Positions 1 to 12,018 of a DNA stretch of 12,018 nucleotides are shown in pieces (position 1 is the stretch's first letter; the number at the start of each line of letters is the position of its first letter). Where the stretch lies: contig JAKFWB010000538.1 of the NCBI GenBank assembly GCA_021732945.1, forward strand, positions 1 through 12,018, given 5' to 3'. The position numbers and the translations under genes are program-made. The notes beneath the pieces were generated by a model. It ran no database searches. It was not told where the DNA came from and worked only from the letters and a program-made list of their open reading frames with translations. This DNA comes from Porphyrobacter sp. (GTDB taxonomy: Bacteria > Pseudomonadota > Alphaproteobacteria > Sphingomonadales > Sphingomonadaceae).

Positions 1-222
1 GGCACAGTCGTCGCAGTTCGGCCCTTCCCTCGCTTCTTTGCGGGCCAGGTAGCGCGCCTGTTTTTCGGCTGCGCGTGTCGCAGCGTCCGCGCCCGCCGTG
101 TCGTGCGCGTAGCTCGCCATGCTTGCTGCCACATCGGTGGCTGGCGCAGCTTGTGCCGCTGCGGGGACGCCTATTGCGGCTGCCATGACCGGCAGGCCGA
201 TGATCAGATGTCTGTGTGTCAT
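1..222 (-). CDS. secreted or periplasmic protein, C-terminus beyond window
   Basis: The ATG at 222-220 opens a frame that runs uninterrupted off the left edge, giving the first 74 residues. The first 25 residues look like a Sec signal peptide: MTHRH, a hydrophobic core (LIIGLPVMAAAIGVPAA) and an AQA/A cleavage site near residue 25. The exported part is Ala-rich and then charged (residues 52-68) and shows a CDDC pair near the edge, which could be redox-active or metal-binding; that is only a guess. The start is supported by a purine-rich AAAGGGAAG ending four bases before the ATG. It is the last visible gene of the minus-strand series, about 40 nt after the 67-residue gene. Many conjugative operons encode exported proteins, but I do not recognise the family. 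Confidence 0.7.
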   Translation of the reverse strand, partial: MTHRHLIIGLPVMAAAIGVPAAAQAAPATDVAASMASYAHDTAGADAATRAAEKQARYLARKEAREGPNCDDCA

Positions 223-238
223 TGTGCTTCCCTTTCCG

Positions 239-266
239 TGTTACCTGATACCAGTTACCAGTTACC
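239..266. repeat. four imperfect 7-bp tandem repeats (consensus AGTTACC)
   Basis: TGTTACC, TGATACC, AGTTACC and AGTTACC follow one another without spacing. They cover the stop codon of the 67-residue gene (262-264) and the short gap before the secreted-protein gene. This could be a replication-slippage product or a small binding site. Confidence 0.7.
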
Positions 267-465
267 ATCCCGTCCTGCGGCCGTCGCGCAGATCGGTCTG
301 CGCACGGCTGTCGCCGAGCGAGGATCGCCGCACCTCGAGCCGGACGCCCTTCCCGCTGGCGGTTGTGCGGATATCTCGCAGGTCGATATCGTTGCGCTTG
401 GCCCAGCGTTCGGCGGCGGCATCGTCGGCGAAATCGCCCATGTCTTCGAAATTCCAGTTGCTCAT
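262..465 (-). CDS. small hypothetical protein (67 aa)
   Basis: A 67-residue acidic-then-basic protein beginning MSNWNFEDMGDFADDAAAER. No membrane segment, signal peptide or recognisable domain is visible. The N-terminal half (residues 1-45) looks like a compact alpha/beta fold with the segment RNDIDLRDIRTT. The C-terminal 20 residues are basic and probably disordered. The gene is credible despite its size: AAAGGA sits eight bases before the ATG, it lies in a 50-nt-spaced position in the minus-strand gene series, and competing frames here have no ribosome site. The stop codon falls inside the heptamer repeats at 239-266, so slippage there could alter the C-terminus. Function unknown. Confidence 0.65.
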   Translation of the reverse strand: MSNWNFEDMGDFADDAAAERWAKRNDIDLRDIRTTASGKGVRLEVRRSSLGDSRAQTDLRDGRRTGW

Positions 466-518
466 CGTCTTGTCCTTTCTTCAGCAGGTTGTCGCGTGCG
501 TGCCGGTCTTTTGTGGGT

Positions 519-1163
519 TCATTCGAATGTCTGGAATTCGATCTCTGCGCGCATGCTGTGCTCCAACGCGTCTTCGATAAGATCGAGTGTTTCCGGGTTC
601 GCGAGGGCGACGACAATGTCCTGATAGGGCGCATCGTTGCCGTGAATGTCTCTTCCCAGAACCATGATCGACCGGCGGTAGGCGCTCATCGGATGGTCGT
701 TCATGGTTGAACAGCAGATGGTCCACCAGTTGGGCATGATCCTCAAGGACCGCATGGCGTCTTCGAATTGCTGTTCGGCCATCAGGATCGCATAGTCACG
801 GCCACCGGAGCGCAGGTCGATGTAATCGTGGGCCGGTCGCAGCAGATCGATCTGGAACACGTGAAACCAGGCCGTTTCAGCGTAGTTGGGGTTGGCAAGT
901 TCCCTCAGGGGGACGGCGTCTGGCCTGTGGTAGTAACCCTGGAAGCCGTCAGGCCCCCTGATCCACAGGAAGTCATTATTGATATCGCTCGCGATGCGCG
1001 CAGCCGCTTCTTCGTCCGTCAGCTGGTGCCAGGAAACCGAGACAAGGCGGTTCGAATAGTCCTTGTAGGTGCGCTGGGGCGACCGCAGGGGATCTGGTTC
1101 GGACCACGAAGGTTTTGCTCCCGCAGAGATCCTTGACCGCGTGAACATGGACATCAAACTCAT
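519..1163 (-). CDS. hypothetical protein (214 aa)
   Basis: A soluble 214-residue protein without signal peptide or membrane helix. The first 35 residues are basic and probably flexible. The rest reads as a mixed alpha/beta domain with aromatic stretches (residues about 67-77, LWIRGPDGFQG, and 145-152, PNWWTICC) and an acidic C-terminal helix (about 193-214). The start is well supported: AGGA lies seven bases before the ATG, and the ATG overlaps the TGA of the upstream XRE-like gene in ATGA, typical of translational coupling. I do not recognise the family. Co-expression with the DUF2726 and regulator genes suggests an accessory plasmid function such as host-range or defence interaction, but that rests on position only. 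Confidence 0.8.
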   Translation of the reverse strand: MSLMSMFTRSRISAGAKPSWSEPDPLRSPQRTYKDYSNRLVSVSWHQLTDEEAAARIASDINNDFLWIRGPDGFQGYYHRPDAVPLRELANPNYAETAWFHVFQIDLLRPAHDYIDLRSGGRDYAILMAEQQFEDAMRSLRIMPNWWTICCSTMNDHPMSAYRRSIMVLGRDIHGNDAPYQDIVVALANPETLDLIEDALEHSMRAEIEFQTFE

Positions 1164-1492
1164 GGTGTGTTCCTCGTGAATTCGGTCGGGTTTGATCGTC
1201 CCCGATTGATCGGGGCGGTCGATGCGCGGCGTGACAGGTCGTAGGGGTACACCTCTCGCTCGATGCGGAAGTCAGACACTGGCTTGAGATTGCCGCCCAT
1301 GACGATCCATTCTGTATCGACGTTATACAGCATTCTCAGGGGCTTGAGAATCGCAATTGGTGGTTCTGCAATCGTCGCTTCCCAGATGAGGAGCGCGCGG
1401 CGGGTGAAGCCGAGGCTCCGCGCAATGCGATCTTCTGACGGGCCCGACCTAAGCCGCACCGCACGGACCCGCTCGCCGACGCTGATCGTCAT
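1160..1492 (-). CDS. XRE-like helix-turn-helix protein (110 aa)
   Basis: Residues 5-66 fit the Cro/C1 helix-turn-helix pattern: GERVRAVRLRSG, then DRIARSLGFTRRALLIWE as the two-helix DNA-contact unit, then EPPIAILKPLRMLYNVDTEW closing the five-helix bundle. The usual Gln/Glu positions of helix 2 are divergent, so DNA binding is likely but not certain. The C-terminal 45 residues are basic and look unstructured. The start is firm: GGAGGT lies six bases before the ATG, and the gene overlaps both neighbours by four bases (ATGA at each end). It shares the 'D-x-x-W-hydrophobic-hydrophobic-x-G' ending with the other XRE protein at 3150-3461, suggesting distant paralogues. A regulator of this operon is the simplest role. 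Confidence 0.8.
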   Translation of the reverse strand: MTISVGERVRAVRLRSGPSEDRIARSLGFTRRALLIWEATIAEPPIAILKPLRMLYNVDTEWIVMGGNLKPVSDFRIEREVYPYDLSRRASTAPINRGRSNPTEFTRNTP

Positions 1493-1953
1493 GCGAGTAC
1501 CTCCGCCAAGGCTTGGCGCACGGTGGCGAAGGTGTGGCGGATCGGTCCAAGCCGAATAGTGAGGTAGCCCGCCCGCGAAGTCATACGGTCGCGTTGCCGG
1601 TCGGCCGAGCGATTGTGCGTGCGGTCGTCGAGCTCGACGATAGCGATGATGTCGCCGCTTGCCCGGTCCTCGAGCACGAAATCGACCCGCTTGGACGAGA
1701 AGCGGTTGCGCACGCTGGTCGAGCGAGATCGGTCAAGCCCTGCCGCAGGCCGCAGGATTGCACCCATTGAGACTTGCGCATGCACCCTCGCGTGAGGCAC
1801 GGCCCGCTCGATCATGGCGCACACGACGCGCTCCCGTTTGGTCATCAGCGGCGCCGCGCGCACGGGCAGCGAGCCTATGCCGCGTTTGGCGGACATGAGC
1901 ATGACCACGAAAACCGCGAGGGCAATGAATGCGAGAATCCCGAGCTCCGTCAT
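1489..1953 (-). CDS. membrane-anchored DUF2726-like protein (154 aa)
   Basis: One N-terminal membrane helix (residues 4-20, LGILAFIALAVFVVMLM) is followed by a cytoplasmic domain matching my memory of DUF2726: 'LMTKRERVVCAMIERAVP' (36-53), 'VHAQVSMGAIL' (57-67), 'SSKRVDFVLED' (86-96) and 'IIAIVELDDRTHN' (102-114). Asp91 with Glu107-x-Asp109 follows the D...ExK-like spacing of the restriction-endonuclease fold, although the Lys is replaced, so catalysis is uncertain. I start at 1953 rather than at the further upstream ATG at 2055 because the extra 34 residues are basic, would overlap the previous gene, and the domain with its anchor begins here. The stop overlaps the next gene (ATGA). DUF2726 proteins occur on many mobile elements; the function is unproven. 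Confidence 0.8.
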   Translation of the reverse strand: MTELGILAFIALAVFVVMLMSAKRGIGSLPVRAAPLMTKRERVVCAMIERAVPHARVHAQVSMGAILRPAAGLDRSRSTSVRNRFSSKRVDFVLEDRASGDIIAIVELDDRTHNRSADRQRDRMTSRAGYLTIRLGPIRHTFATVRQALAEVLA

Positions 1954-2396
1954 AGCGGCTCTGGCCCCATTGGGCTCGTTGCGCTGAGGTGTAACTTCGT
2001 CATCTCTCTGGCCCCTTCGACGTGTCGTAGCTGTCGAGACCCCACGCTTCGGCAAGGGCCAGAAATGTTGGATGTGCCGGACTCGTTGCGGTCGCGAAGA
2101 CGCCTTCGGGAAGGCCCTGGTCGTCGGTGTCTGATGATATGTGATAGGCGGTGAAGAGCGTCTCGACGAAATGTATCAGGAACCGCAGACGATCAGCGTC
2201 GCTCTCGAACCGCATGCCGTCGAACCGGTTCGCGAAATGATCGAAGTCTGCCTCTCCGAGTCCTCCGGCCAGCATAATAGTCTCTATAAGAGCCAATGCC
2301 CGCAGGTTGGCCTTCTTAACGTCGGCCGGTGTCGGGGGTGCCGCTCGCTTCCGCCGGATCCATTGCCACAACTTTCTCATAGCGGCTCCGGCCCCA
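1950..2396. repeat. 20-nt direct repeat pair flanking the 126-aa gene
   Basis: Plus-strand positions 1950-1969 and 2377-2396 are identical except for one base (C/T at the twelfth position). On the minus strand each copy reads TGGGGCCRGAGCCGCTATG plus one A, so each copy contains the start codon of a gene: the DUF2726 gene and the 126-residue gene. The 427-bp offset equals one whole gene, so the unit looks like a module inserted by recombination at a gene junction, or a tandem duplication whose copies have diverged. Confidence 0.75.
2000..2380 (-). CDS. hypothetical protein (126 aa)
   Basis: A 126-residue soluble protein beginning MRKLWQWIRRKRAAPPTPAD. A short amphipathic basic N-terminus (1-13) is followed by a largely helical body (residues about 19-85) with acidic and aromatic positions, then a Gly/Ala/Pro-containing tail. 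The start at 2380 is preferred over an upstream in-frame start at 2539: it gives an ATGA overlap with the 257-residue gene, and the upstream 53 codons are the out-of-frame shadow of that gene. GGAG lies five bases before the ATG. The end is followed by 46 nt without a gene. The gene is bracketed by the 20-nt direct repeats and may be a later insertion. Family not recognised. Confidence 0.7.
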   Translation of the reverse strand: MRKLWQWIRRKRAAPPTPADVKKANLRALALIETIMLAGGLGEADFDHFANRFDGMRFESDADRLRFLIHFVETLFTAYHISSDTDDQGLPEGVFATATSPAHPTFLALAEAWGLDSYDTSKGPER

Positions 2397-3150
2397 CGAG
2401 CATTTGCCGTGTTTTCAGGTTGCCGTCGATCCGACGGTGGAGGTCGATGCCGTTCCCGCGCGAGTGCCCGAACTCCATCAGCTCGGCCACGGTTTCGTAT
2501 TGGGTGTTGGGCCCGAAGAACTTGGCATTTCCATGCCATTTTTGTCCTTCGATCACACGCATGCGCCAGATGCCGACGGGGGCGGGGATCGTTACCTCGC
2601 TGTTTGCCGCGACGAAGACGGAGATCACATGGCGATCTGTCTCAGGGTGGACTAGCTGAACAACGGCGTTGGAATCGCTTGTCCTCACCGCGAGTTGGCT
2701 GCGCACAATTTTCATCGGGAGATTACTTGCGACGCTAACGCTGCCGGTTTCTGGGAACGGGAGGCCGGGCTCGGTGTCGGGCAGCCACCCTCCCCGCCGA
2801 AGATCACCCAACATCGGAATGGCGTAGGTAGTGAGGCACAAGAGCGGTATCGCCCATGCTGCGAAACGTCTGGTCCCCGACGAGACATTTTGACGCGGCT
2901 GACGCGATATTCGCCGTCCGTGCTGTCCGCGGGGCTCGTTCCTTTTTCGAGAGAAGCCTGCGGCCGCTATGCGGTCGTACTGGTCGAAACTGGTGTCTTT
3001 ACCGACCCAGCTCGCCCCTCCGCGCGGAACCTCGTCAGCGATTCTTGCCGCATCACGCTCAGCCTTGTTGAAACTCCACCTGGAGGGGGCCTTTTTGCCC
3101 TGCCGCTCCCAATATCGTTCCTTCATGTAGTCGCGGTCATCGATTCCCAT
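2377..3150 (-). CDS. single-pass membrane protein with C-terminal extracytoplasmic domain (257 aa)
   Basis: Residues 1-95 are strongly basic and cytoplasmic, starting with the motif MGIDDRDYMKERY. A membrane helix follows (about 96-114, FAAWAIPLLCLTTYAIPML), and the remainder should be periplasmic. The distal domain (about 148-245) contains the motif GIWRMRVIEGQKWHGNAKFF at 193-212, followed by GPNTQY; I recall similar 'W-x-G...FGP-x-T' segments in uncharacterised plasmid and phage proteins, but cannot name a family. The start is very well supported: AAAGGAGT ends seven bases before the ATG, and TGATG joins it to the XRE gene. The N-in/C-out topology and operon position would suit a surface or mating-associated role; this is inference. 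Confidence 0.82.
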   Translation of the reverse strand: MGIDDRDYMKERYWERQGKKAPSRWSFNKAERDAARIADEVPRGGASWVGKDTSFDQYDRIAAAGFSRKRNEPRGQHGRRISRQPRQNVSSGTRRFAAWAIPLLCLTTYAIPMLGDLRRGGWLPDTEPGLPFPETGSVSVASNLPMKIVRSQLAVRTSDSNAVVQLVHPETDRHVISVFVAANSEVTIPAPVGIWRMRVIEGQKWHGNAKFFGPNTQYETVAELMEFGHSRGNGIDLHRRIDGNLKTRQMLVGPEPL

Positions 3151-3461
3151 CAGCGCGACTCCTTTCCGGTTTGAGGTGCGCGGAGTTCGTAGTCGCCATC
3201 TTCGGCCGAATGCCGACGCCTAACGCCTAGCAAAAGCCACTGAGGGTCAATGCGGTAGTCTCCGCAGAATTGCGCCAGAAGGCTCACGGGCGGGTCTGTA
3301 TGGCCCTTTTCGTACCCTGTGAGGGTCTGGCGCGCGATCCCGAGGCGTTCGGCAAGCTGCTCCTGCGTGAGGTCGAGCGATATTCGCGCGCATTTCATAC
3401 GGTGCGCAAGGCCTGACATGTCGCGGGTTCGGTGATCGACAGGATTGGCAGCCAAGGTCAT
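3150..3461 (-). CDS. XRE-family transcriptional regulator (103 aa)
   Basis: Residues 18-78 form a textbook Cro/C1-type helix-turn-helix: MKCARISLDLTQEQLAERLG, then IARQTLTGYEKG as the recognition and closing segment, then DPPVSLLAQFCGDYRIDPQW. The flanks are short and charged. The chosen ATG at 3461 overlaps the stop of the 94-residue gene in ATGA and is preceded by GGAAG at good spacing; the longer frame to 3692 is the shadow of that gene. Met15 is a possible internal start. The stop overlaps the next start as TGATG. A likely role is feedback control of the transfer operon, since it is the first cytoplasmic regulator after the relaxase. Confidence 0.88.
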   Translation of the reverse strand: MTLAANPVDHRTRDMSGLAHRMKCARISLDLTQEQLAERLGIARQTLTGYEKGHTDPPVSLLAQFCGDYRIDPQWLLLGVRRRHSAEDGDYELRAPQTGKESR

Positions 3462-3742
3462 GCGGCGACTTCCAGAGCTTGAGACGCGTCCGTCGCGCGC
3501 GGCATCTTCTGAGCCTGTTTCTGCGCGCGCCATTCCATCCCCCACAGCAAGCCAGCCATGAGCGTGATCGCCATCGCGAGCATGACCGAAAGGTAGGCTT
3601 CGGCGATGGGGTCTTGGCCGGGTTCGCCCATGTGCTCGGCCATGGCCCACTCCTGGCAGAACTCCATGCCGTAGCCTTCGACATTGCACCAATGGATGTG
3701 GTTGCCGTGGACAACGTAATCGTAATTGATCGATGGTTGCAT
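3458..3742 (-). CDS. small single-pass membrane protein (94 aa)
   Basis: The N-terminal 45 residues are polar with His, Cys and Trp (HGNHIHWCNVEGYGMEFCQ, 12-30). They are followed by one membrane helix (about 49-69, AYLSVMLAMAITLMAGLLWGM) and a short basic tail (71-94), so the basic tail is probably cytoplasmic and the Cys/His-rich part outside. The start lies two bases after the relaxase stop, with GGAGAT seven bases before the ATG, so translation is almost certainly coupled to the relaxase. Small membrane proteins next to relaxase and coupling-protein genes can act in entry exclusion or mating-pair contact, but there is no sequence signature for that here. Family not recognised. Confidence 0.75.
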   Translation of the reverse strand: MQPSINYDYVVHGNHIHWCNVEGYGMEFCQEWAMAEHMGEPGQDPIAEAYLSVMLAMAITLMAGLLWGMEWRAQKQAQKMPRATDASQALEVAA

Positions 3743-3744
3743 GA

Positions 3745-6700
3745 TCAGATCTCCAGGCTGATGTCTTTTTCGGGGAAGGGTTTGTCCGGCACGCGCGGTT
3801 CGACCGCGACGCGGTGCTTGCTGAGGTCCATGCTGTCTGGCTTCACGAGGTCGGCGGGCACTTCGGGATTGAAGGTCTTGTCCGACTTGCTTGGCCCAGA
3901 GCCTCTGTCTCTGGGAGGATCGATCTCAAGGCCGCCGACCGTCTCGAGCGCGCTGGTCTTGTTGCCCTCGTTGCGCTCGATGGCGCTGATCAGCCGATCC
4001 TTGTTATCGGTGTGGAGTGTCAGATCGTCCCGCACGCGGGTGACGGTGACGTTGAACAGGCGCTGGTTCGACAGGTTGCTTTCCGACCCGCTCATCACCG
4101 CGATGCCCTTGTCGGTGGTCACGCCCTGCGCCATGTGCATGTTGATTGCATATGCTAGGCCGAGGCGTTCGAGCATGGGGTCGCCCTGCTTCAGATGCAC
4201 CGTCTGATCATCGGCGCTCTTCACGCTGATGCCGTCCTTGCTCACCCCCGTGACCTGCGCGAGCGAGGCATTGTAGAGCCCCCGCTCTTTGTCGTTCGCC
4301 GTCCACCGGATCTGATCGTTCGCGTGAAGCTTGATCTCGCTGCGTTGGGTGAGCCCGAGCGCGTCACGCTTGTCGTTGGGGTCGATCTTCTGCGGGTCAA
4401 ACCGCACTGTGCGGTTCCCGATCTTCAGCTCGACCCGGCCCTTGGCATCGACGCCGAGCACCTCGTAGCTGCCGCGCCGGAGCCCGATTTCCGAGACCGC
4501 GCGTGCAACTTCAAGCGTCTGACCGGTCCTATAGGTCTGGGGGTAGCGCAGTTCCTCTCGCTCTACATTGACCCGTTCGAGCACCTTCAAAGATATGCTG
4601 TCCTTGCCAAGCGTGCCGTCGGCACGCAGACCATCCTGGATGCGCTGGTTGAGCTCGGCACGGGCGTCCCGGCCGGAGGCGAACACCATCGTCCGGTCGC
4701 GCTCATCCTTGGGAAGCCCCAGCCATTGGTCAGCTGCGGATTTGATGTGATCGGGGCTGGCCTTGAGCTTATCGCCCAGCACTTCCATCGCGCCGCGAAC
4801 CTCGCCCCGATTGGCCAGCGCTGCGACCGTGCGCAGCTGATCGGTGCGCTGGCGCAAGTTCTCGTCCATCCGCACCATGGCGATCCCATCGGCCTGCGCC
4901 ATCGCGAAGGCCTTGCCCGCATCGATCGATGAGAGCTGCTGGCGGTCGCCGATCATGATCAGCTTCTCGACGCCGAGTGCATTGGCGATGCCGACCAGAT
5001 GCCTCATCGGCTCGCTGCCGACCATTGAGGCTTCATCCAGCACCAGCACCGTGCCCTTCAGCGCATCGCGCGCCGCGTCGTAACCCTGTCCCTGCCCCGC
5101 GAGTGCTGCCTTGGCATAGGCATTCACGAAGGATGACACCGTCTGTGCTTCGATGCCTGCACCGTCCCTGAGGTCGCCAACCATCTTGTTCTGGAAGGCG
5201 AGCCCCAAAACCTTGTGACCTTGCTGCTCGGCAACCCGGGCCACGGCCCCGATCATGGTCGACTTGCCCGCGCCCGCGACCCCTTGCACCGCGACGATGC
5301 GGTCGCTGGACGAGAGGCCGAGCACGGCAGCGGCCATCTGGCCCGTGTTGAGCTGCTTGTCGCCGGAGACGGCGTTGATGCGTTCGACCGCAGCGTCAGG
5401 CGCAACGATCGGCGTTGCAGCCCCCCTGCCCCTGTCGATCTGGGCAAGGATCAGGGATTCGGTCGCAAGGGCGTGCGGCGTCGTGACATGGGTCAGCGCG
5501 CCATCGATCCGGTTTGACTGGCCCGGGATGAGGTTTCCGCTCTCAAGCAGCTGCTCGACGCGGGCATCGACCTTCTCGGCCGTGACACCCCTCAAGCCCA
5601 GATCGAGCGCGGTTTTGGTGATCTGTGGGATCGGAAAGGCCGCCTCTCGCTGTTCGAGAATGCGGATGGCCGAAGCGACTGCCGCCTGCGCGCGCAGGTC
5701 GTCTGGCGAGAATTTGAGGCGGTCGAGCCCCTGCGTTACCAGCGGGTCTTTCTCCCTGAACACCCCGCCGAGCGCTGTGACGATGTTCGATATGGTCTCG
5801 CTGAGGCGCTGGGTCGGTGTGTTGAGCCGGTCAGGTGTCGTCCCGGCCGCGCGCGATTTCGCTTCCTCGATGACCTGCTTCCCGTCGAACCCGATCGCGG
5901 CGGCGCGCTCTCGCCAGTCGGCGGCGAGTTTCTCGCGGTCCTCGACATTGAGCTTTGGATCTCGGCTGTTCTTCGTGATGCTGCGAAGACTCTCGGTAGA
6001 GGTCAGTCCGAGTTTCTCGCTTCGGGCGAGGATCTCTGCCCGACGCTTGCTGAACTCGTCGATCGCCTCCTTGGGCACGCCGTTGATCTCGAACTGGCCG
6101 TGCTTGCCGGTTATGCGCGTCTCGTAGCCAAGCTCAGCCAGCTTTTCGCGGAAAGCAGCATGGTAGGCTGCACCAATGACCGAGTTGTTTTTCCATAGCT
6201 GGCCATTGTGGAGCGCCTGCCAAGCCCCGTTCGCCATGCGGGTGAGGTTGGCGATTACGACATGGATGTGGCCCTGTGGATCGAGCGCGCGGCTCGTGTC
6301 GTGGGCAAACATTCCGTAGACGAGATTACCCGTGCGCACCGGCTCGCCCGACTTCGTTCGCTCATAGGTTCGCCCTTCGGCAAACTTGCTCTCCACCCAT
6401 GTCATGGTTTCGCGGACGGCGCTCCAGTGGGCCGCTAGGATGCGCTCGTCCCCGGATACCAGTGCCAGGATGCTGGCTGATTTCGGCATCGAGAATGTGA
6501 GGTCCATCCCCGACTGGCGGTTGGGCACCTGTCCGACCTTCTCGCCATTGGGCAGCTCACCATTCAGGATCTTCTCGAAGGCATCCTTGGTGACCTCGCC
6601 GCTGAGACCAAGCATCTCAGCGCCTTTCCCTGCCCATCCGGTCTCAGGGTTGTCGTTCGCTGCTCCGCGTACTGCGTCCCCGGTGCCGACGCCGGCTTCA

Positions 6701-6873
6701 CCGCCTTTGTCAGCACCGCCACCGCCCAGCCCTTCTCCGCCGCCGCCGGGGCCGCCATCACCGCCCCCCGCGCCGCCGCCTTCGCCGAGGTAATAGTCAG
6801 CCGGGTGCTTGTCGTCCTTGGCGAAGTATTCGGCGGCTCCAGAGGCGGATTTGACCGATGCGACCGAGAGCAT
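3745..6873 (-). CDS. trwC: MobF-family conjugative relaxase-helicase (TrwC/TraI type, 1042 aa)
   Basis: This protein nicks oriT, stays bound to the 5' end through tyrosine, and unwinds the transferred strand. It starts with the family signature MLSVASVKSASGAAEYFAKD. Candidate catalytic tyrosines are 27 and 28 (ADYYLG). The metal-binding histidines are 191, 202 and 204 (AHDTSRALDPQGHIHVVI). The relaxase domain ends near residue 290. A RecD-like SF1 helicase follows: Walker A GVAGAGKST (531-539), Walker B VLDEAS (611-616), motif III IGDRQQLSS (641-649), and a C-terminal motif near 908-946 (AINMHMAQGVTT and VTVTRVRDD). Length is close to R388 TrwC and much shorter than F TraI. Oddly, a glycine-rich tract (30-58) follows the tyrosine pair. 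GGGAG precedes the ATG, which lies two bases after the coupling-protein stop. Confidence 0.97.
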   Translation of the reverse strand: MLSVASVKSASGAAEYFAKDDKHPADYYLGEGGGAGGGDGGPGGGGEGLGGGGADKGGEAGVGTGDAVRGAANDNPETGWAGKGAEMLGLSGEVTKDAFEKILNGELPNGEKVGQVPNRQSGMDLTFSMPKSASILALVSGDERILAAHWSAVRETMTWVESKFAEGRTYERTKSGEPVRTGNLVYGMFAHDTSRALDPQGHIHVVIANLTRMANGAWQALHNGQLWKNNSVIGAAYHAAFREKLAELGYETRITGKHGQFEINGVPKEAIDEFSKRRAEILARSEKLGLTSTESLRSITKNSRDPKLNVEDREKLAADWRERAAAIGFDGKQVIEEAKSRAAGTTPDRLNTPTQRLSETISNIVTALGGVFREKDPLVTQGLDRLKFSPDDLRAQAAVASAIRILEQREAAFPIPQITKTALDLGLRGVTAEKVDARVEQLLESGNLIPGQSNRIDGALTHVTTPHALATESLILAQIDRGRGAATPIVAPDAAVERINAVSGDKQLNTGQMAAAVLGLSSSDRIVAVQGVAGAGKSTMIGAVARVAEQQGHKVLGLAFQNKMVGDLRDGAGIEAQTVSSFVNAYAKAALAGQGQGYDAARDALKGTVLVLDEASMVGSEPMRHLVGIANALGVEKLIMIGDRQQLSSIDAGKAFAMAQADGIAMVRMDENLRQRTDQLRTVAALANRGEVRGAMEVLGDKLKASPDHIKSAADQWLGLPKDERDRTMVFASGRDARAELNQRIQDGLRADGTLGKDSISLKVLERVNVEREELRYPQTYRTGQTLEVARAVSEIGLRRGSYEVLGVDAKGRVELKIGNRTVRFDPQKIDPNDKRDALGLTQRSEIKLHANDQIRWTANDKERGLYNASLAQVTGVSKDGISVKSADDQTVHLKQGDPMLERLGLAYAINMHMAQGVTTDKGIAVMSGSESNLSNQRLFNVTVTRVRDDLTLHTDNKDRLISAIERNEGNKTSALETVGGLEIDPPRDRGSGPSKSDKTFNPEVPADLVKPDSMDLSKHRVAVEPRVPDKPFPEKDISLEI

Positions 6874-6875
6874 GA

Positions 6876-9335
6876 TCAGTCTCCCAACCCGAAGTCGTCG
6901 TCGATCGCGGGTGTGCCGTGTGAGGCTTCCCTATCGTTGCTGTGGCTCTGATCCTTCTGGTCAGTCCCTGCACCCTCGCGGGTCTCGCGCTGGATTTGCT
7001 CTTCGGGCCGGTCCCGATCCTGCTTCCCGAGCGTCTTTTCGGTCAGCGCCTCCTTGGCCTGTTCGCGATTGATTTCGGTCTGATCGCCACTGATGGCTAT
7101 GAGCTGTTTCATGACGGAGAGACCCGCCGTTCTCGGCTGACCGTCATCGGCATCCGCGTCTTTTGCGGGGACATCCGCAGGGTTGTCGTTGCTGGGCGCA
7201 ACGGCCCTGACAATCTCGCTCTCGCCGAACATCCCATCGGCAGCTTTCTCAGCCTCCGAGCGTCCGTCAGCCTTCTCAGTGCTCTCCGCCTTTTCCAGCG
7301 CCTCGGTTGTCTCCTGCTCCGCTTCCTCAGCCTCCACGCGCCCGGTCGGCGGCAAGGTTTCAGGACCACCCTCACTCCCCCCTTCCGCGCTCTCTGGCCG
7401 GCTCGCCGGCCGTTTGGCATCTGGCGGTTTGTAGGGCGTCGGTTCCATGCTGGTCACACGCAAGAACCCTTGGGCGACTTCGGGGTAATCCTTCCATTGC
7501 AGCTTGATCCGCGCGGCCGGAAACCCGTCGGGGAACTTTATGAAGCCGTGCATCGACGGCAGGTTCGTAATGTCGTCGGGAATGACCAGCGGCTCAATTG
7601 CCTTGCGCGGCGTCAGGGTCGATGCATCGCGGGTGTTGTTGTAGCCATAGCTGTAGGCTTCATCCATCTGGCGGACCTCGCGGTTGCCGATGAATTCGGC
7701 GCAGCGTTCAGCCGACTGGTAATCTGCTGTGGCCAGGATCAGCTTGGTGCGCGCAAGGCCTGCCAGATTGGTCGCACCTTTCTCGCCGTAGGTCTCCTCT
7801 AGCTTGGCAAAGGAGTGGATGCCGAGAACGAAGGCACCGCCATAGTTTCGGGCGGTCTGCAGGCCATTGCCGATGGCAGGAAGGGCATGCAGAGCATTGA
7901 CCTCGTCGAACAGGAACCAGGTCCGAAGATCGCGTGTGCGCGGAAGCGTCATCTGGGCGGTGACGGCCATGTCGGTCCAGAGCGTCAGCAGCATCCGGGT
8001 GAAGTTCATGTCGGAATAGCTTGACGTGATGAACAGGATCGAGCCGGGCGCCGAGGCCTTGACCCATGCCTTGATCGAGAAGCTGTCAGGCTTCTCGGGC
8101 GAAGGGTCGGGGATGTAGCGAATGGCGTTGGCGTTCGTGTTGAATACCGACCGGATCGACTCCGCCATGCGGGCCGCAGTTTCGGCCGTAAGGGGAGCCG
8201 CGACCGTGTCCTTCAACTTGGCATGGATCTGCTTCAGGTTGGCGGTCATCAGGTGATGGGCAATGGCCGCGTTTGACATCTCGCCGTCGGCTTTGAGCTT
8301 CATGCAGATTTCAACGAACAGGGTTCGTGCAGCATTCTGCCAGAAGGGCTCCTTCTCATCTGGGTGCGACGGGATCAGGGCGGTGGCGGCCGTGAGAAAA
8401 TCGGCATAGAGTTCGCAGTCGTTGAAGATGGTCCAGGGCACGCACCGTTGATCCATAGGATTGAGGATTGTGTCGCTCTCCGGGTTGTAGAAGGCTTCGA
8501 CAAACGCGCCGGTCAAATCGAAGATCACTGCGTTCTGGCCGCGCTCACGCAGTTGAGTTACGAGCGAGCGAAGCTGGGTGGTCTTGCCCGCACCAGTTGT
8601 GCCGATCAGCATGGTGTGGCTTTGCTCGAGTCGCCATGGATAGGGAACGCCCGCGATCATGTAAGGTTGATGGATCCCAAGCTCTCGTTTCTGCTGGCGG
8701 TCCAGATTGATGATGTCAGTAGGTTCGCGCGGAGGATCGAGACGCGAGCATTCATAGGCAAAACGGTTGCCGTTATGGGCTCGGACTTCCGCTCGCAGGA
8801 CTTCGCGCTCGACCAGCATGGCACCGCGCTCATGGCGTTCTTCGAGGATCGATTTGCCGCGTTTCCGGGAGAACTCGATGAACCAGATGCTGAGCGGTGC
8901 AGCGATGAAGATGGCCATGAAAGCCGAGCCGAAAAGGCAGCGAAGCGCCTTGGCCGAGGCAGAGGCAACGTAGGGGTCGTAAGGCACTGCCCCCATCAGC
9001 GTGGGGCGGATCATCCCATTGGGAAGAGTGAGGTGAATGACCTTCGTTGGGTCGAGCAGCATCAGCGACCAAAGACCCGAATACATGCGCATCAGGACGA
9101 GATGAATTTCGGGCGTGCTGAGCGACAGGCTGATGGTCGTGGCAAGCGCCAGACTGAAGACCAGAAACCAGATCAGGAGCGGGATTTTGATCCCAGCAAA
9201 CCACATCCAGAATTCGTGGGTAACCAGCTGCGATCCGCGGGTGAAGTTGCCGGCGTTTCGGGTCACTCTTCCGCGTGCGGAATGATGCTGGATCGTGGCG
9301 CCCTTGCCGTTGAATCGGATGTCATCGCGGCGCAT
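6876..9335 (-). CDS. trwB: type IV coupling protein (VirD4/TraD/TrwB family, 819 aa)
   Basis: This inner-membrane ATPase brings the relaxase-DNA complex to the secretion channel. Numbering from the chosen start: two membrane helices (about 41-70 and 135-154) enclose a short periplasmic loop. The ATPase domain has Walker A GTTGAGKTT (245-253) and Walker B WFLFDEVNAL (473-482), then motif-rich segments near LGIHSFAKL (504-512) and SAERCAEFIGNREV (541-554). The last 175 residues or so are acidic, Ser/Glu-rich and probably disordered, ending DDDFGLGD. The start at 9335 is chosen over the in-frame start at 9383 because GGAGGA lies just upstream at ideal spacing. It overlaps the ribbon-helix-helix gene by 14 nt. 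At the other end the stop is two bases from the relaxase start. Confidence 0.95.
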   Translation of the reverse strand: MRRDDIRFNGKGATIQHHSARGRVTRNAGNFTRGSQLVTHEFWMWFAGIKIPLLIWFLVFSLALATTISLSLSTPEIHLVLMRMYSGLWSLMLLDPTKVIHLTLPNGMIRPTLMGAVPYDPYVASASAKALRCLFGSAFMAIFIAAPLSIWFIEFSRKRGKSILEERHERGAMLVEREVLRAEVRAHNGNRFAYECSRLDPPREPTDIINLDRQQKRELGIHQPYMIAGVPYPWRLEQSHTMLIGTTGAGKTTQLRSLVTQLRERGQNAVIFDLTGAFVEAFYNPESDTILNPMDQRCVPWTIFNDCELYADFLTAATALIPSHPDEKEPFWQNAARTLFVEICMKLKADGEMSNAAIAHHLMTANLKQIHAKLKDTVAAPLTAETAARMAESIRSVFNTNANAIRYIPDPSPEKPDSFSIKAWVKASAPGSILFITSSYSDMNFTRMLLTLWTDMAVTAQMTLPRTRDLRTWFLFDEVNALHALPAIGNGLQTARNYGGAFVLGIHSFAKLEETYGEKGATNLAGLARTKLILATADYQSAERCAEFIGNREVRQMDEAYSYGYNNTRDASTLTPRKAIEPLVIPDDITNLPSMHGFIKFPDGFPAARIKLQWKDYPEVAQGFLRVTSMEPTPYKPPDAKRPASRPESAEGGSEGGPETLPPTGRVEAEEAEQETTEALEKAESTEKADGRSEAEKAADGMFGESEIVRAVAPSNDNPADVPAKDADADDGQPRTAGLSVMKQLIAISGDQTEINREQAKEALTEKTLGKQDRDRPEEQIQRETREGAGTDQKDQSHSNDREASHGTPAIDDDFGLGD

Positions 9336-9618
9336 GGAATTCCTCCATGCGTTCGTGGGCGATTTGCTCCAGACCGGGAGCAAGATCGCTATGCTCTCGG
9401 TGGACGATTAGATCGACCGCAGCCTGGGTGTATTCGAGGAGGAGAATGAGGCGCTTTGGATCGATCGAATAGCCGTTGAGAGCGCTTTTGGCGCCCATTC
9501 TTATTGCTATTCTAACGGCTTCATTGCGAGAGCAGTCACGCTGCACCGCTAGAGCATCGATCAGTGCCAGCTCCTGCGGACTACAGCGCAGGCTGATGTA
9601 GTTGTTCTTGGTAGTCAT
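9322..9618 (-). CDS. ribbon-helix-helix DNA-binding protein, probable oriT accessory factor (98 aa)
   Basis: Residues 5-42 fit a CopG/Arc-type ribbon-helix-helix: a beta strand NNYISLRCS (5-13), helix A SPQELALIDALAVQRD (13-28), a turn CSRNEAV and helix B to about 42. The remaining part (55-90) is helical, with LLEYTQAAVDLIVHREH. Its place directly before the coupling-protein and relaxase genes matches trwA in R388, whose product binds oriT, stimulates nicking and represses the operon; the same role is inferred here. The ATG at 9618 has only a weak ribosome site (GGATGG), located inside a hairpin (9622-9642). The 3' end overlaps the coupling-protein gene, whose ribosome site lies within this gene. 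Confidence 0.88.
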   Translation of the reverse strand: MTTKNNYISLRCSPQELALIDALAVQRDCSRNEAVRIAIRMGAKSALNGYSIDPKRLILLLEYTQAAVDLIVHREHSDLAPGLEQIAHERMEEFHAPR

Positions 9619-9621
9619 AGC

Positions 9622-9642
9622 CCATCCACTGGTTGTGGATGG
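9622..9642. promoter_or_regulatory. 8-bp inverted repeat covering the ribosome site of the RHH gene
   Basis: CCATCCAC, a 5-nt spacer and GTGGATGG pair perfectly. On the minus-strand transcript the second arm contains the only purine-rich stretch before the ATG at 9618, three bases downstream. It may be an RNA hairpin that limits translation, or a DNA operator for the RHH protein. Confidence 0.55.
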
Positions 9643-9693
9643 TGGGGCTTTCGCAGAATTCTTTTAGCACCCTGGTGGCGGGTTGAGAAGAGC

Positions 9694-9759
9694 AATGGCA
9701 ATTCATTTTGAAATTGCCATTTATCGTGCTATAACAGTGCTATACTTGCTGGAACCAGC
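9694..9759 (+). other. predicted oriT core with nick site at 9730/9731
   Basis: A perfect 10-bp inverted repeat (AATGGCAATT at 9694-9703, AATTGCCATT at 9712-9721, 8-nt spacer) is followed by TATCGTGCT/ATAAC. R388 oriT, as I remember it, has a hairpin followed by TATTGTCT/ATAGC, cut by TrwC at the slash. The two differ by one inserted and two substituted bases, and the distance from hairpin to cut is nine versus eight bases. The plus-strand orientation would place the tra genes last in transfer, as in R388. GTGCTATA is repeated 11 bp further on (9737-9744), and a second small hairpin, GCTGG/CCAGC, follows at 9748-9759. The gene-free stretch 9619-10114 also carries the other inverted repeats listed here. 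Confidence 0.6.
9726..9744. repeat. GTGCTATA direct repeat, 11-bp period, across the nick region
   Basis: GTGCTATA occurs at 9726-9733 and 9737-9744. The 11-bp period puts both copies on the same helix face, as expected for a binding site of a small DNA-binding protein such as the adjacent RHH protein. The first copy contains the predicted nick. Confidence 0.6.
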
Positions 9760-9766
9760 TAGTGAA
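9739..9766 (-). promoter_or_regulatory. possible promoter of the tra operon
   Basis: On the minus strand TTCACT, a 16-bp gap and TATAGC give a weak sigma-70-like pair, with start expected near 9732, about 115 nt before the RHH start codon. It overlaps the GTGCTATA repeats and the predicted nick, which would suit autoregulation by the relaxosome. The match is poor and other placements are possible. Confidence 0.25.
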
Positions 9767-9798
9767 TTGAAATGAAGCGCTGAAGCAAAATGATACGG

Positions 9799-9814
9799 CG
9801 CTGTATATACAGCG
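9799..9814. promoter_or_regulatory. 16-bp perfect palindrome followed by T-tract
   Basis: CGCTGTATATACAGCG is a perfect palindrome, followed on the plus strand by GTTTTTG. It could be a protein-binding site within oriT, or a short terminator (6-bp stem, ATAT loop, five T) for plus-strand transcripts. Confidence 0.45.
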
Positions 9815-9985
9815 GTTTTTGATCGCGGGCGCCGCATTCGGTGTGCATTCCTTAGGGACTGCGACCGGGGCTTGATGCCGTCCTGGTCTTTGATCCTGAT
9901 GTGAGTCTGGAATTCCTGTGGGGGAGTCGCTGCGCGGGTCGTTCGGGTACGGGACGATTGGGCTGTGCGGAGCGATTTCGCCCCT

Positions 9986-10014
9986 AAAGCGCCAAGCCTT
10001 GGCGATGGCGCTTT
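9986..10014. repeat. nested inverted repeats in the oriT-side intergenic region
   Basis: AAAGCGCC (9986-9993) pairs with GGCGCTTT (10007-10014). Within and overlapping it, CGCCAAG (9990-9996) pairs with CTTGGCG (9998-10004). The two folds exclude each other, so this is either a cruciform or binding site or an alternative structure on single-stranded DNA. No gene or T-run is attached. Confidence 0.5.
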
Positions 10015-10056
10015 CATCATCAATCGATGTTCAGCGATTGGACATTCACTGCCGTC

Positions 10057-10084
10057 TTGATCCTCAGAAGGATAGCCCTATGCT
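10057..10084 (+). promoter_or_regulatory. possible promoter of the coiled-coil gene
   Basis: TTGATC (10057-10062), a 16-bp gap and TATGCT (10079-10084) form a reasonable sigma-70-type pair. The start would be near 10091, about 24 nt before the ATG at 10115. Confidence 0.4.
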
Positions 10085-10114
10085 TTGCAGCGCAGGGCGA
10101 TAAGGGAACGTGTG

Positions 10115-10333
10115 ATGGCAGCTAAGATCGAGAAGGAACGAGCCGCAATTCGTGAGGAAGAATTGAAGCTCGCAGAGCGCAAGAAGAGGCTTGCGGAACG
10201 CGAAGCCGAAGAGCGCGCATCGGCGATGGCAAAGAGCGTTCTCACGAAGCTCGATTCAGATCGTCTTGTGGCTCTCCTGAGCCGTATGAAAACGCTCGGA
10301 ATCGAAGAGGTCGAGAAGCGTCTTCTGGCTTAG
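10115..10333 (+). CDS. small charged coiled-coil protein beside oriT (72 aa)
   Basis: The protein is dominated by a long charged helix (residues about 2-45: KIEKERAAIREEELKLAERK and a second heptad block), ending with a small domain TKLDSDRLVALLSRMKTLGI (54-73 region) and VEKRLLA. The start at 10115 is supported by AAGGGA seven bases upstream; a GTG one codon earlier is possible, and a TTG at 10085 is less likely. It is divergent from the tra operon and is the first gene on the predicted leading side. The length and coiled-coil-then-small-domain layout recall small oriT accessory proteins such as Agrobacterium TraC or MobC, but that is an analogy of shape and position, not a family assignment. 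Confidence 0.75.
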   Translation: MAAKIEKERAAIREEELKLAERKKRLAEREAEERASAMAKSVLTKLDSDRLVALLSRMKTLGIEEVEKRLLA

Positions 10334-10387
10334 CAGGAGTGCTTCGAAACCGTGGTAAGGATTCTCGAAGCCGTGAAGGCAAATAAA

Positions 10388-10416
10388 GAAGGGCGCTGAC
10401 ATGGTCAGCGCCCTTC
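10388..10416. terminator. bidirectional intrinsic terminator
   Basis: A perfect 13-bp stem (GAAGGGCGCTGAC and its complement) with a 3-nt loop lies between two convergent genes. On the minus strand it is followed by TTTATTT, a good tail for the 186-residue gene. The plus-strand tail (CCGTTT) is weaker but could serve the coiled-coil gene. Confidence 0.85.
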
Positions 10417-10436
10417 CCGTTTGGTCTGGTTGGAGG

Positions 10437-10997
10437 CTATCGCCAGACGAGTTGTGGATCGGCTGACAGGCATGCGCGAAGCATCCTGTCGAGCTGTTCG
10501 AGGCATGTTTCCATTCCGCCCCATGTGAGATGTCGGCGCGTTGGTGGATCATTGATAGCTTGGCTCAAGTCATCGGCGTCAATCGACCCTGTCGATGCGT
10601 TGCCCATTCCGATTGCGTCAAGCAGAAGCTGACCATTGGTATCGCTGAGATTGATCGGAAAGGCACCGTCTGGAGTCGAGGAGACGCCCATCATAATTTG
10701 AGCATCAGCGCGTTCTCTCCAGATACGGACGTTCAGGCCGAGAAATTGCGCTTCTTCGATGACGCCGATTACCGCTTCCTGGTTCCCAAAAAGTCGGGCT
10801 AGGGTCGCCCAGCTCCATGGGCACACGCGGGCATTGAAGCCATCTTCCAAGTATGAGAAATCGGGGTCGTCAAAGATGCCGACAAGTTGTCCATGCGATT
10901 GCGCGAAGGCTCGGAAGGCAGTCAATTGCTGAAGCGTTATGCATGCCGGTTTCGAGACTGGAGCAACCTTGCTTTGCAGCTGAAAGGTCATTGTCAT
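10437..10997 (-). CDS. hypothetical protein (186 aa)
   Basis: A soluble 186-residue protein with no signal peptide or membrane helix. A polar N-terminus (1-20) precedes an alpha/beta-looking body with FDDPDFSYLEDGF (42-54), CPWSWATLARLFGNQEAV (59-76) and INLSDTNGQLLLDAIGM (115-131). I do not recognise a family. The start at 10997 (MTMTF) is chosen because GAGGAG lies nine bases upstream; the frame stays open to a TTG at 11030, where no suitable spacing exists. It is transcribed toward the coiled-coil gene and stops at the shared terminator. Its upstream region holds a 12-bp palindrome and a leader with an intrinsic terminator, so its expression may be conditional. As a leading-region gene it would enter the recipient early. 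Confidence 0.8.
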   Translation of the reverse strand: MTMTFQLQSKVAPVSKPACITLQQLTAFRAFAQSHGQLVGIFDDPDFSYLEDGFNARVCPWSWATLARLFGNQEAVIGVIEEAQFLGLNVRIWRERADAQIMMGVSSTPDGAFPINLSDTNGQLLLDAIGMGNASTGSIDADDLSQAINDPPTRRHLTWGGMETCLEQLDRMLRACLSADPQLVWR

Positions 10998-11052
10998 GGT
11001 CAAGCACTCCTCACTGGAACGCTCGATCAATCCCCCTCCCCTCTTGCTGTGA

Positions 11053-11064
11053 GCGACATGTCGC
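11053..11064. promoter_or_regulatory. 12-bp perfect palindrome upstream of the 186-aa gene
   Basis: GCGACATGTCGC is a perfect palindrome about 55 bp before the start codon at 10997 and downstream of the leader terminator. An operator for a dimeric regulator is possible. Confidence 0.35.
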
Positions 11065-11080
11065 GAACGGCAACGATGGC

Positions 11081-11122
11081 GATAAAAATGATGGCCCTGC
11101 CGGGTCGCTGTGCAGGGCCATC
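11081..11122 (-). terminator. intrinsic terminator inside the leader of the 186-aa gene
   Basis: On the minus strand GATGGCCCTGC, an 11-nt loop and GCAGGGCCATC form a perfect 11-bp GC-rich stem followed by ATTTTTATC. It lies 84 bp before the next start codon, so it ends a short upstream transcript or works as an attenuator. Confidence 0.8.
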
Positions 11123-11198
11123 TAGGGTGGTCTCATGGGAGACCTCGGGTTGCTGGCAGCTGTCTTGGGGGAGAGCTGCGAAGCAGAACTTACGCATC
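11084..11198 (-). ncRNA. candidate small RNA or attenuator leader
   Basis: A transcript from the promoter-like pair at 11205-11232 would be about 115 nt and end at the terminator above. It holds three successive hairpins: GCAGCT/AGCTGC (11156-11161 with 11174-11179), GGTCTC/GAGACC with a 4-nt loop (11129-11144), and the terminator stem. No ribosome site and convincing ORF pair is seen; the frame 11215-11027 runs through the terminator. It may be a stand-alone RNA or a leader controlling the 186-residue gene. No known riboswitch family is recognised. Confidence 0.4.
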
Positions 11199-11204
11199 GT
11201 CCGA

Positions 11205-11232
11205 AATTTATTCAAGTATCATCGTGAGACAA
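11205..11232 (-). promoter_or_regulatory. possible promoter abutting the tandem array
   Basis: On the minus strand TTGTCT (11232-11227), a 16-bp gap and TAAATT (11210-11205) resemble a sigma-70 promoter. The -35 box touches the first base of the repeat array at 11233. This short AT-rich stretch stands out from the GC-rich array. Confidence 0.4.
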
Positions 11233-12018
11233 GGCGCGGCGGCGATGCCAGCGAGGCACGCATGTGCCGATGCGCTGGCGAGCAGCGCCGCGCCGTGATC
11301 GGGCGCACGGCAGACCGTGCGAAGCCGATGCGGACGAAGGTCCGCAAGGCCAGCAAGGGACTGCCGGTGCGCGCGCGCCGAGGGTCGCCCCAGCCCGGGC
11401 CGACGACGGCCCGTCGATGCGTCGATCACGCGCTGCGGCAGGCGCGGCGGCGATGCCAGCGAGGCACGCATGTGCCGATGCGCTGGCGAGCAGCGCCGCG
11501 CCGTGATCGGGCGCACGGCAGACCGCGCGAAGCCGATGCGGACGAAGGTCCGCAAGGCCAGCAAGGGACTGCCGGTGCGCGCGCGCCGAGGGTCCCCCAG
11601 CCCGGGCCGACGACGGCCCGTCGATGCGTCGATCACGCGCTGCGGCAGGCGCGGCGGCGATGCCAGCGAGGCACGCATGTGCCGATGCGTTGGCGAGCAG
11701 CGCCGCGACGGGATCGGGCGCACGGCAGACCGCGCGAAGCCGACGCGGACGAAGGTCCGCAAGGCCAGCAAGGGACTGCCGGTGCCCGCGCGCATACGGT
11801 CGCCCCAACCCGGGCCGACGACGGCCCGTCGAGCCGCCGATCACGCGCTGTGGCAGGCGCGGCGGCGATGCCAGCGAGGCACGCATGTGCCGATGCGCTG
11901 GCGAGCTGCGCCGCGCCGGGACCGGGCGCACGGCAGACCGCGCGAAGCCGACGCGGACGAAGGTCCGCAAGGCCAGCAAGGGACTGCCGGTGCCCGCGCG
12001 CCGATGGTCGCCCCAGCC
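11233..12018. repeat. 208-bp tandem repeat array, almost four copies, rich in hairpins
   Basis: Copies start at 11233, 11441, 11648 and 11856; periods are 208, 207 and 208, and the last copy runs off the window. Copies 1 and 2 differ at very few positions; copies 3 and 4 carry more substitutions. In copy 1 a 62-nt extended hairpin is built from GGCGCGGCG/CGCCGCGCC (11233-11241 with 11286-11294), GCCAGCG/CGCTGGC (11247-11253 with 11273-11279) and GGCAC/GTGCC (11255-11259 with 11264-11268). CGTGATCG/CGATCACG (11294-11301 with 11423-11430) then encloses three hairpins with 4-nt loops at 11305-11320, 11330-11345 and 11397-11412. Long open frames exist on both strands, but a 208-bp period shifts frame at each copy and no ribosome site is seen, so I treat the array as non-coding. 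Confidence 0.9.

Follow-up and report, generated by a model that had tools for sequence, protein, structure and literature searches.

The window analysed here, a stretch of 12,018 bp from Porphyrobacter sp. (contig JAKFWB010000538.1, positions 1 to 12,018; G000:C24:1-12018), ends in a hairpin-rich tandem array that lies near the genes of a MobF relaxase and a TrwB-type coupling protein. The reading that we favour, and regard as having an even chance of being right, is that of a tandem landing array of single-stranded DNA (ssDNA) modules on which transcription of early genes or synthesis of the second strand begins after entry into the recipient, much as on Frpo/ssi elements (see below) but with no -35/-10 boxes. 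The structure and the strand of the array are well supported, and we infer that it recruits a partner. Related arrays, alike in strand and similar in location, occur in plasmids from related bacteria and are suggestive of a device that starts up the incoming DNA.

Structure, covariation and spread of the array

Tandem Repeats Finder (TRF) applied to the window reports an array at 11232-12018 with a period of 208, 3.8 copies and 95% matches, and a search of the assembly with the unit gave four matches, all being the four array copies (208, 207, 208 and at least 164 bp), so that the nearly four 208-bp copies claimed in the preliminary description are borne out. The array reaches the end of the contig, and its copy number is a lower bound. 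Every complete copy has three elements: M1, a nested hairpin of 62 nt; M2, a module of 57 nt; and M3, a simple hairpin. The M1 hairpin at 11233-11294, described earlier as perfect, is present but interrupted by internal loops, while the stems said to be unchanged are so, that at 11330-11345 in four of four copies and that at 11397-11412 in the three copies that include that stretch; the G-U-compatible change in copy 3 was also found. Long open reading frames (ORFs) cross the array, called non-coding in the preliminary description, but with a period that is not a multiple of three no frame repeats. A simple sigma-70 and terminator scan of 9600-12018 found no site within the array, in agreement with the claim that a unit contains neither promoter nor terminator. 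Folding with DNA parameters (100 shuffles each) gave z-scores of -5.3 (+) and -5.2 (-) for copy 1, and only -1.6 (+) and -2.3 (-), nearer to shuffled sequence, for the decayed copy 3.

A search with the TrwB profile yielded 80 loci, which together with the window and plasmid pYT40 (NZ_CP041223) make 82 leading sides; 78 of them, longer than 500 bases, were scanned for tandem repeats. Arrays were found in 21 of the 78, some of these loci being near-duplicates, with periods of 87-406 bp and at 1.7-4.6 kb from the TrwB start. Erythrobacter colymbi (L105) carries the unit of the window in 5.3 copies. A covariance model, R1, built from Sphingomonas-type (S-type) modules and run on 59 chosen sources, gave 149 matches at E values up to 1. 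Some of these are weak matches to divergent arrays, that of the window (11231-11296 and 11851-11919, E about 0.25) among them, and have the expected position and strand. Among eight complete plasmids fetched later (L131-L138), p213 of Sphingomonas sp. AAP5 (L133), of which 18.6 kb was read, contains 18 R1 modules in its array, L131, L136, and L138 one to three each, and L132, L134, L135, and L137 none at E 0.05.

The stems of these modules covary. S-type modules, collected by a regular expression on the strand oriented as the transferred (T) strand (86 sequences), gave 134 matches (72 distinct) on that strand and none on its reverse. In 34 diverse modules, 11 of 15 pairs were changed on both sides and 93.5% of cells were paired, in comparison with 19-46% in slid controls, which collapse; double changes occupied 100 cells, where shuffles averaged 37.9 and not one of the 500 reached 100. 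The M2 expression matched 44 times on the T-oriented strand versus once on the reverse, and the inner and outer pairs of the 31 distinct M2 modules, which come from loci of the Erythrobacteraceae and Novosphingobium types, covary, one outer pair being AT in 18, GC in 12, GT in one, and AC in none. The covariance analysis of homologous arrays proposed in the preliminary description thus finds covarying stems in both S-type and M2 modules, and stems are preferentially kept, contrary to the random substitutions named there as the opposing outcome.

Changes on both sides of a stem with pairing kept are unexpected for a sequence-specific duplex site, which makes improbable a double-stranded protein-binding array (a partition centromere, iterons, or stbDR-like repeats), even though repeats near oriT are known in R388 (stb). 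Moreover, in pYT40, the sole plasmid examined in this respect and read in three stretches of about 122 of its 182.8 kb (72-133 kb left out), ParB, an AAA ATPase, and RepA are encoded at 152-156 kb and a further ParB-family gene lies at 163-165 kb, while the array is at about 10 kb, that is some 40 kb away from RepA and ParB; the plasmid centromere suggested earlier is therefore disfavoured. As for a recombination target, also among the earlier suggestions, no evidence was met, no search having been aimed at recombination.

A selfish REP/BIME-like repeat sitting by chance in the leading region would fit the tandem GC-rich imperfect palindromes and the single modules elsewhere in that region, but is very improbable given the distribution and the single orientation of the modules. 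At E 1e-4 and under stricter filters, R1 matches only 3 of 246 genomes of the order (the window's own genome gives no match at this threshold), and in seven carrier genomes all 95 matches at E 1e-4 fall on contigs with TrwB. Nine contigs of the seven genomes are, by their coordinates, loci already collected, and the three newly fetched ones carry TrwB, fam186 (the leading gene described below), and a SLOG/DUF2493 gene.

Two annotated genes occupy the place of an array. In L117, a "hypothetical protein" (WP_185707960; 7687-9558) spans the array and continues into fam186, and its first two thirds or so are probably a false translation, an indication that arrays of this kind may be annotated as a long "protein" that is not real. 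At the equivalent place L137 has a 3.8-kb annotated gene, which may be genuine, because R1 detects no module there.

Plasmid setting and the transferred strand

The order of the genes for a ribbon-helix-helix (RHH) protein, TrwB, and the MobF TrwC-type relaxase in the window (Table 1) is that of R388. A nic-like block is situated between the RHH gene and the array, which lies 1.4 kb from it on the leading side; of 78 leading sides, 61 have the motif T.[CG]GGTGTG on the + strand, and none has it on the - strand. The corresponding sequence of F, GGGGTGTGG, which we take to be nic, immediately precedes traM and is directed toward psiB and ssb; a second copy lies in the leading region on the opposite strand. 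In annotated plasmids the genes past the array (ssb, Phd, DUF736, and others) are mostly directed toward oriT, as are ssb and psiB of F. The order of the genes, taken together with the nic-like site, makes it very probable that the + strand is the T-strand and that the array lies within the leading region.

Table 1. Annotated features of the window with the basis of each assignment
Feature	Position	Strand	Basis
MobF (TrwC-type) relaxase-helicase gene	3745..6873	-	Pfam TrwC 1.4e-78, AAA_30 3.6e-39
TrwB-type coupling protein gene	6876..9383	-	Pfam TrwB_AAD_bind 1.1e-148
RHH (CopG/TrwA-like) gene	9322..9618	-	Pfam RHH_1 4.1e-5
Putative nic region: hairpin 9825-9835, GGTGTGCA 9840-9847, TTAGGGACTG 9852-9861	9825..9861	+	motif scan, conserved 9-mers
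186-amino-acid leading gene (fam186), acidic, near arrays	10437..10997	-	no known family
Hairpin between fam186 gene and array	11090..11122	+	sequence; same hairpin in L105 and L072
Hairpin	11129..11144	+	by eye, L072 has both sides of one stem pair changed
Array copy 1	11232..11439	+	208 bp; TRF and unit matches
Module M1 (62 nt), copy 1	11233..11294	+	fold; R1 weakly matches 11231-11296 on +, E 0.25
Module M2 (57 nt), copy 1	11309..11365	+	M2 expression and covariation
Simple hairpin M3, copy 1	11396..11413	+	sequence
Array copy 2	11440..11646	+	207 bp; unit matches
Array copy 3, most diverged	11647..11854	+	208 bp; unit matches
Array copy 4, cut by contig end	11855..12018	+	at least 164 bp; unit matches

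Many loops of the arrays are of a DNA type, a class of stable DNA loops that comprises c(GNAB)g, c(GNNA)g, and c(GNA)g. Among the distinct tetraloops counted in 24 array regions that we delimited, c(GNAB)g makes up 39 of 77 on the T-strand and none of 78 on the other strand, with 2 of 43 in shuffled arrays and 10 of 126 in the leading region at 5-9.9 kb as controls. Positions left unpaired on the T-strand are rich in purines (A:T 647:318 and 305:26, in folds without G-U). Of 19 loci with arrays or modules, 17 show a preference for the T-strand and two a tie; none prefers the opposite one.

The bias extends beyond the arrays. In the rest of the leading region 71 hairpins with DNA-type loops are on the T-strand (four of them belonging to stray modules) versus 13 on the other (p 8e-11), and 19 versus 4 within 0.2-1.1 kb beside TrwB, while on the lagging side there are 22 versus 12 (p 0.12), all p values for the hairpin bias ignoring relatedness. 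By locus, still outside arrays, 39 leading sides favour the T-strand, 3 the other, and 16 tie, the corresponding numbers for lagging sides being 15, 8, and 35. In the eight later plasmids, the distinct hairpins of the leading side, with those in arrays counted as well, number 30 versus 10 (p 0.002; seven plasmids favour the T-strand and one the other), and those of the lagging side 3 versus 4 (p 1.0). The one-way modules, the DNA-type loops, and the leading-region bias together make it probable that the strand which folds is the one transferred.

Covarying stems and purine-rich loops would equally suit a structured non-coding RNA made from the + strand, its tandem modules regulating or serving as a decoy, and strand specificity is compatible with a transcript. 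Nevertheless, GNRA and UNCG loops are missing from all 77 T-strand tetraloops, the only + promoter-like site in the window scan is at 9767-9794 and thus not at or near the array, no Rfam match reaches the gathering score in the window, and such a transcript would be antisense to the leading genes. The regulatory RNA put forward in the preliminary description consequently loses ground for want of a promoter match and of RNA-type tetraloops on the + strand, and we consider it unlikely. A ToxIN-like type III toxin-antitoxin system has tandem RNA repeats upstream of a gene for a toxin of the ToxN fold; the array does precede a gene, but the folded strand is the opposite one. PADLOC gave no match, and fold searches of fam186 gave no clear one.

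Two further families of T-strand hairpins with GNA triloops were noticed. One (L064 and L061, at 7337 and 6814 bases from the TrwB start, respectively; also L039 and L057) has differing stems in a common frame, GCGGGCA-hairpin-CAACACGG or similar, and in L064 and L061 is situated about 120 bp upstream of ssb. The other (L005, L064, L066, L069, L072, L056, and L095), at 2.5-5.2 kb from the TrwB start, consists of ATTTTGC-GCA-GCAAAAT and its variants in a common G-rich frame. A charged 82-amino-acid ORF adjoins oriT in the window (10085-10333, +), on the strand opposite to the leading genes; pYT40 and L116 have a small annotated gene in the same orientation and place, the likeness being one of position and orientation. 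pYT40 also carries floR and tet(G) between IS6100 copies at 23.7-29.3 kb.

The fam186 gene beside the arrays

The leading gene next to the array, fam186, has no match in Pfam, NCBIfam, or PADLOC. Its structure model is confident (pLDDT 87), and fold searches revealed no clear solved relative. The family is acidic (median isoelectric point 4.9, n=77), and tblastn searches of the PLSDB plasmids with two queries returned 48 and 51 records, every one named as a sphingomonad. A member, in some cases broken, is present in 45 of the 82 leading sides, including all 21 with TRF arrays. According to the TRF, R1, fetched-contig, and M2 match lists, 28 of the 68 leading sides of at least 3 kb have both the gene and a module, 24 neither, 12 the gene only, and 4 a module only.

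This co-occurrence, as well as the hairpin bias of the leading T-strand outside arrays, also suits an ssDNA platform that binds fam186, SSB, or an anti-defence factor without starting synthesis, and shields the 5' part of the T-strand or blocks its sliding back; we consider such a platform rather unlikely.

Folded modules stand a short way upstream of fam186 in most of the Sphingomonas-type loci inspected and are separated from it by little AT-rich sequence, an arrangement that suits expression starting on single strands. In most of the 25 loci inspected, the coding strand was seen by eye to carry a GGGGAGGGGGA-like purine tract upstream of fam186, shortly 5' of the Shine-Dalgarno sequence.

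Proposed initiation on single strands and comparison with known systems

Of the four roles listed in the preliminary description, the single-strand initiation array is the one favoured by the position in the leading region, the transferred strand, the covarying stems, and the DNA-type loops. On reaching the recipient, the modules of the T-strand would form a series of hairpins that have GNA/GA internal loops and are capped by C(GNAB)G; these may recruit an initiation factor: RNA polymerase, a primase or primosome, or a plasmid protein loading them. The recruited factor would bring about early expression of the adjacent fam186, complementary-strand synthesis, or both, and conversion to the double-stranded form would abolish the hairpins and turn the device off. 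The many copies could raise the chance of loading and buffer the decayed ones. More tentatively, such tandem modules may form a new class of functional DNA, selected to fold as ssDNA and acting only during the minutes of single-strandedness, their loop chemistry being specific to DNA and their core formed by GNA/GA internal loops. The array would then be the largest of a whole set of such elements on the leading strand of MobF plasmids in sphingomonads.

Several observations weigh against initiation on single strands. Five weak R1 matches (L060, L076, L085, L101, and L119; E 0.1-0.6) are misplaced or on the wrong strand, and F has neither an R1 match at E 0.05 nor a loop bias (2 versus 3). GNRA or UNCG loops make up 3 of 78 tetraloops on the other array strand, the counts of G-U versus A-C give no strand preference (9:13, 13:12, 6:5), the loop classes were picked after the arrays had been seen, and the eight later plasmids are relatives. 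Among the fam186 loci of at least 3 kb, 12 of 40 are without a detected module, and four loci have a module and no gene; short or split versions of the gene occur in L036 and in four array loci (L047, L051, L054, and L109), so it cannot be required everywhere. The array of L095 is about 2.2 kb from fam186, and the module of L118, L119, L124, L125, and L138 is found toward oriT from the gene instead of upstream of it, which suits second-strand initiation better. In the window, as in L105, an AT-rich stretch (about 11204-11228) separates the array from fam186 and could be an ordinary promoter, one that the simple scan does not flag. Finally, there is no -35/-10-like site in 11232-12018 by the simple sigma-70 scan, which covered 9600-12018 of the window.

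Among known systems, R388 has stbDR, short direct repeats beside oriT and upstream of stbA. The array shares with them its place on the leading side in a MobF plasmid and differs in its long structured modules. Phage N4 virion RNA polymerase uses hairpin promoters, and C(GNA)G mini-hairpins are known; common to these and the array are DNA hairpins with very stable GNA-type loops, while the modules are larger and have several internal loops.

How genes are expressed and the second strand is rebuilt on plasmid entry outside enteric bacteria is a largely open question. The closest parallel is provided by the Frpo/ssi ssDNA promoters, which act in the leading regions of F and ColIb-P9 in a place and phase like those of the array (PMC9849209, PMC11541004). 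Both kinds of element are located in the leading region, fold on the transferred strand (here by prediction), and have as neighbours early leading genes whose transcription is directed toward oriT. Other hairpins are also found near ssb here, and in enteric plasmids an Frpo upstream of ssb, as for the L064 and L061 hairpins, is reported in PMC11541004. In contrast to Frpo/ssi, the array is tandem (18 modules in the complete p213) and GC-rich, with GNA/GA internal loops, GNAB caps, and covarying stems, and in the window it is without -35/-10 boxes by the simple sigma-70 scan, for which reason we do not class it as Frpo, an element whose stem restores such boxes. The ssDNA promoters of the two reports were found via sequence similarity and sigma-70 boxes (PMC9849209, PMC11541004), the candidate search combining BLAST with a -35/-10/UP consensus (PMC11541004), and arrays of the window type would escape such a search. 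The strand-bias test used here (DNA-type loops, transferred strand, leading region) is applicable to other plasmid groups. If our reading is true, a GC-rich array with covarying DNA-type hairpins represents a second solution, found by structure and strand bias.
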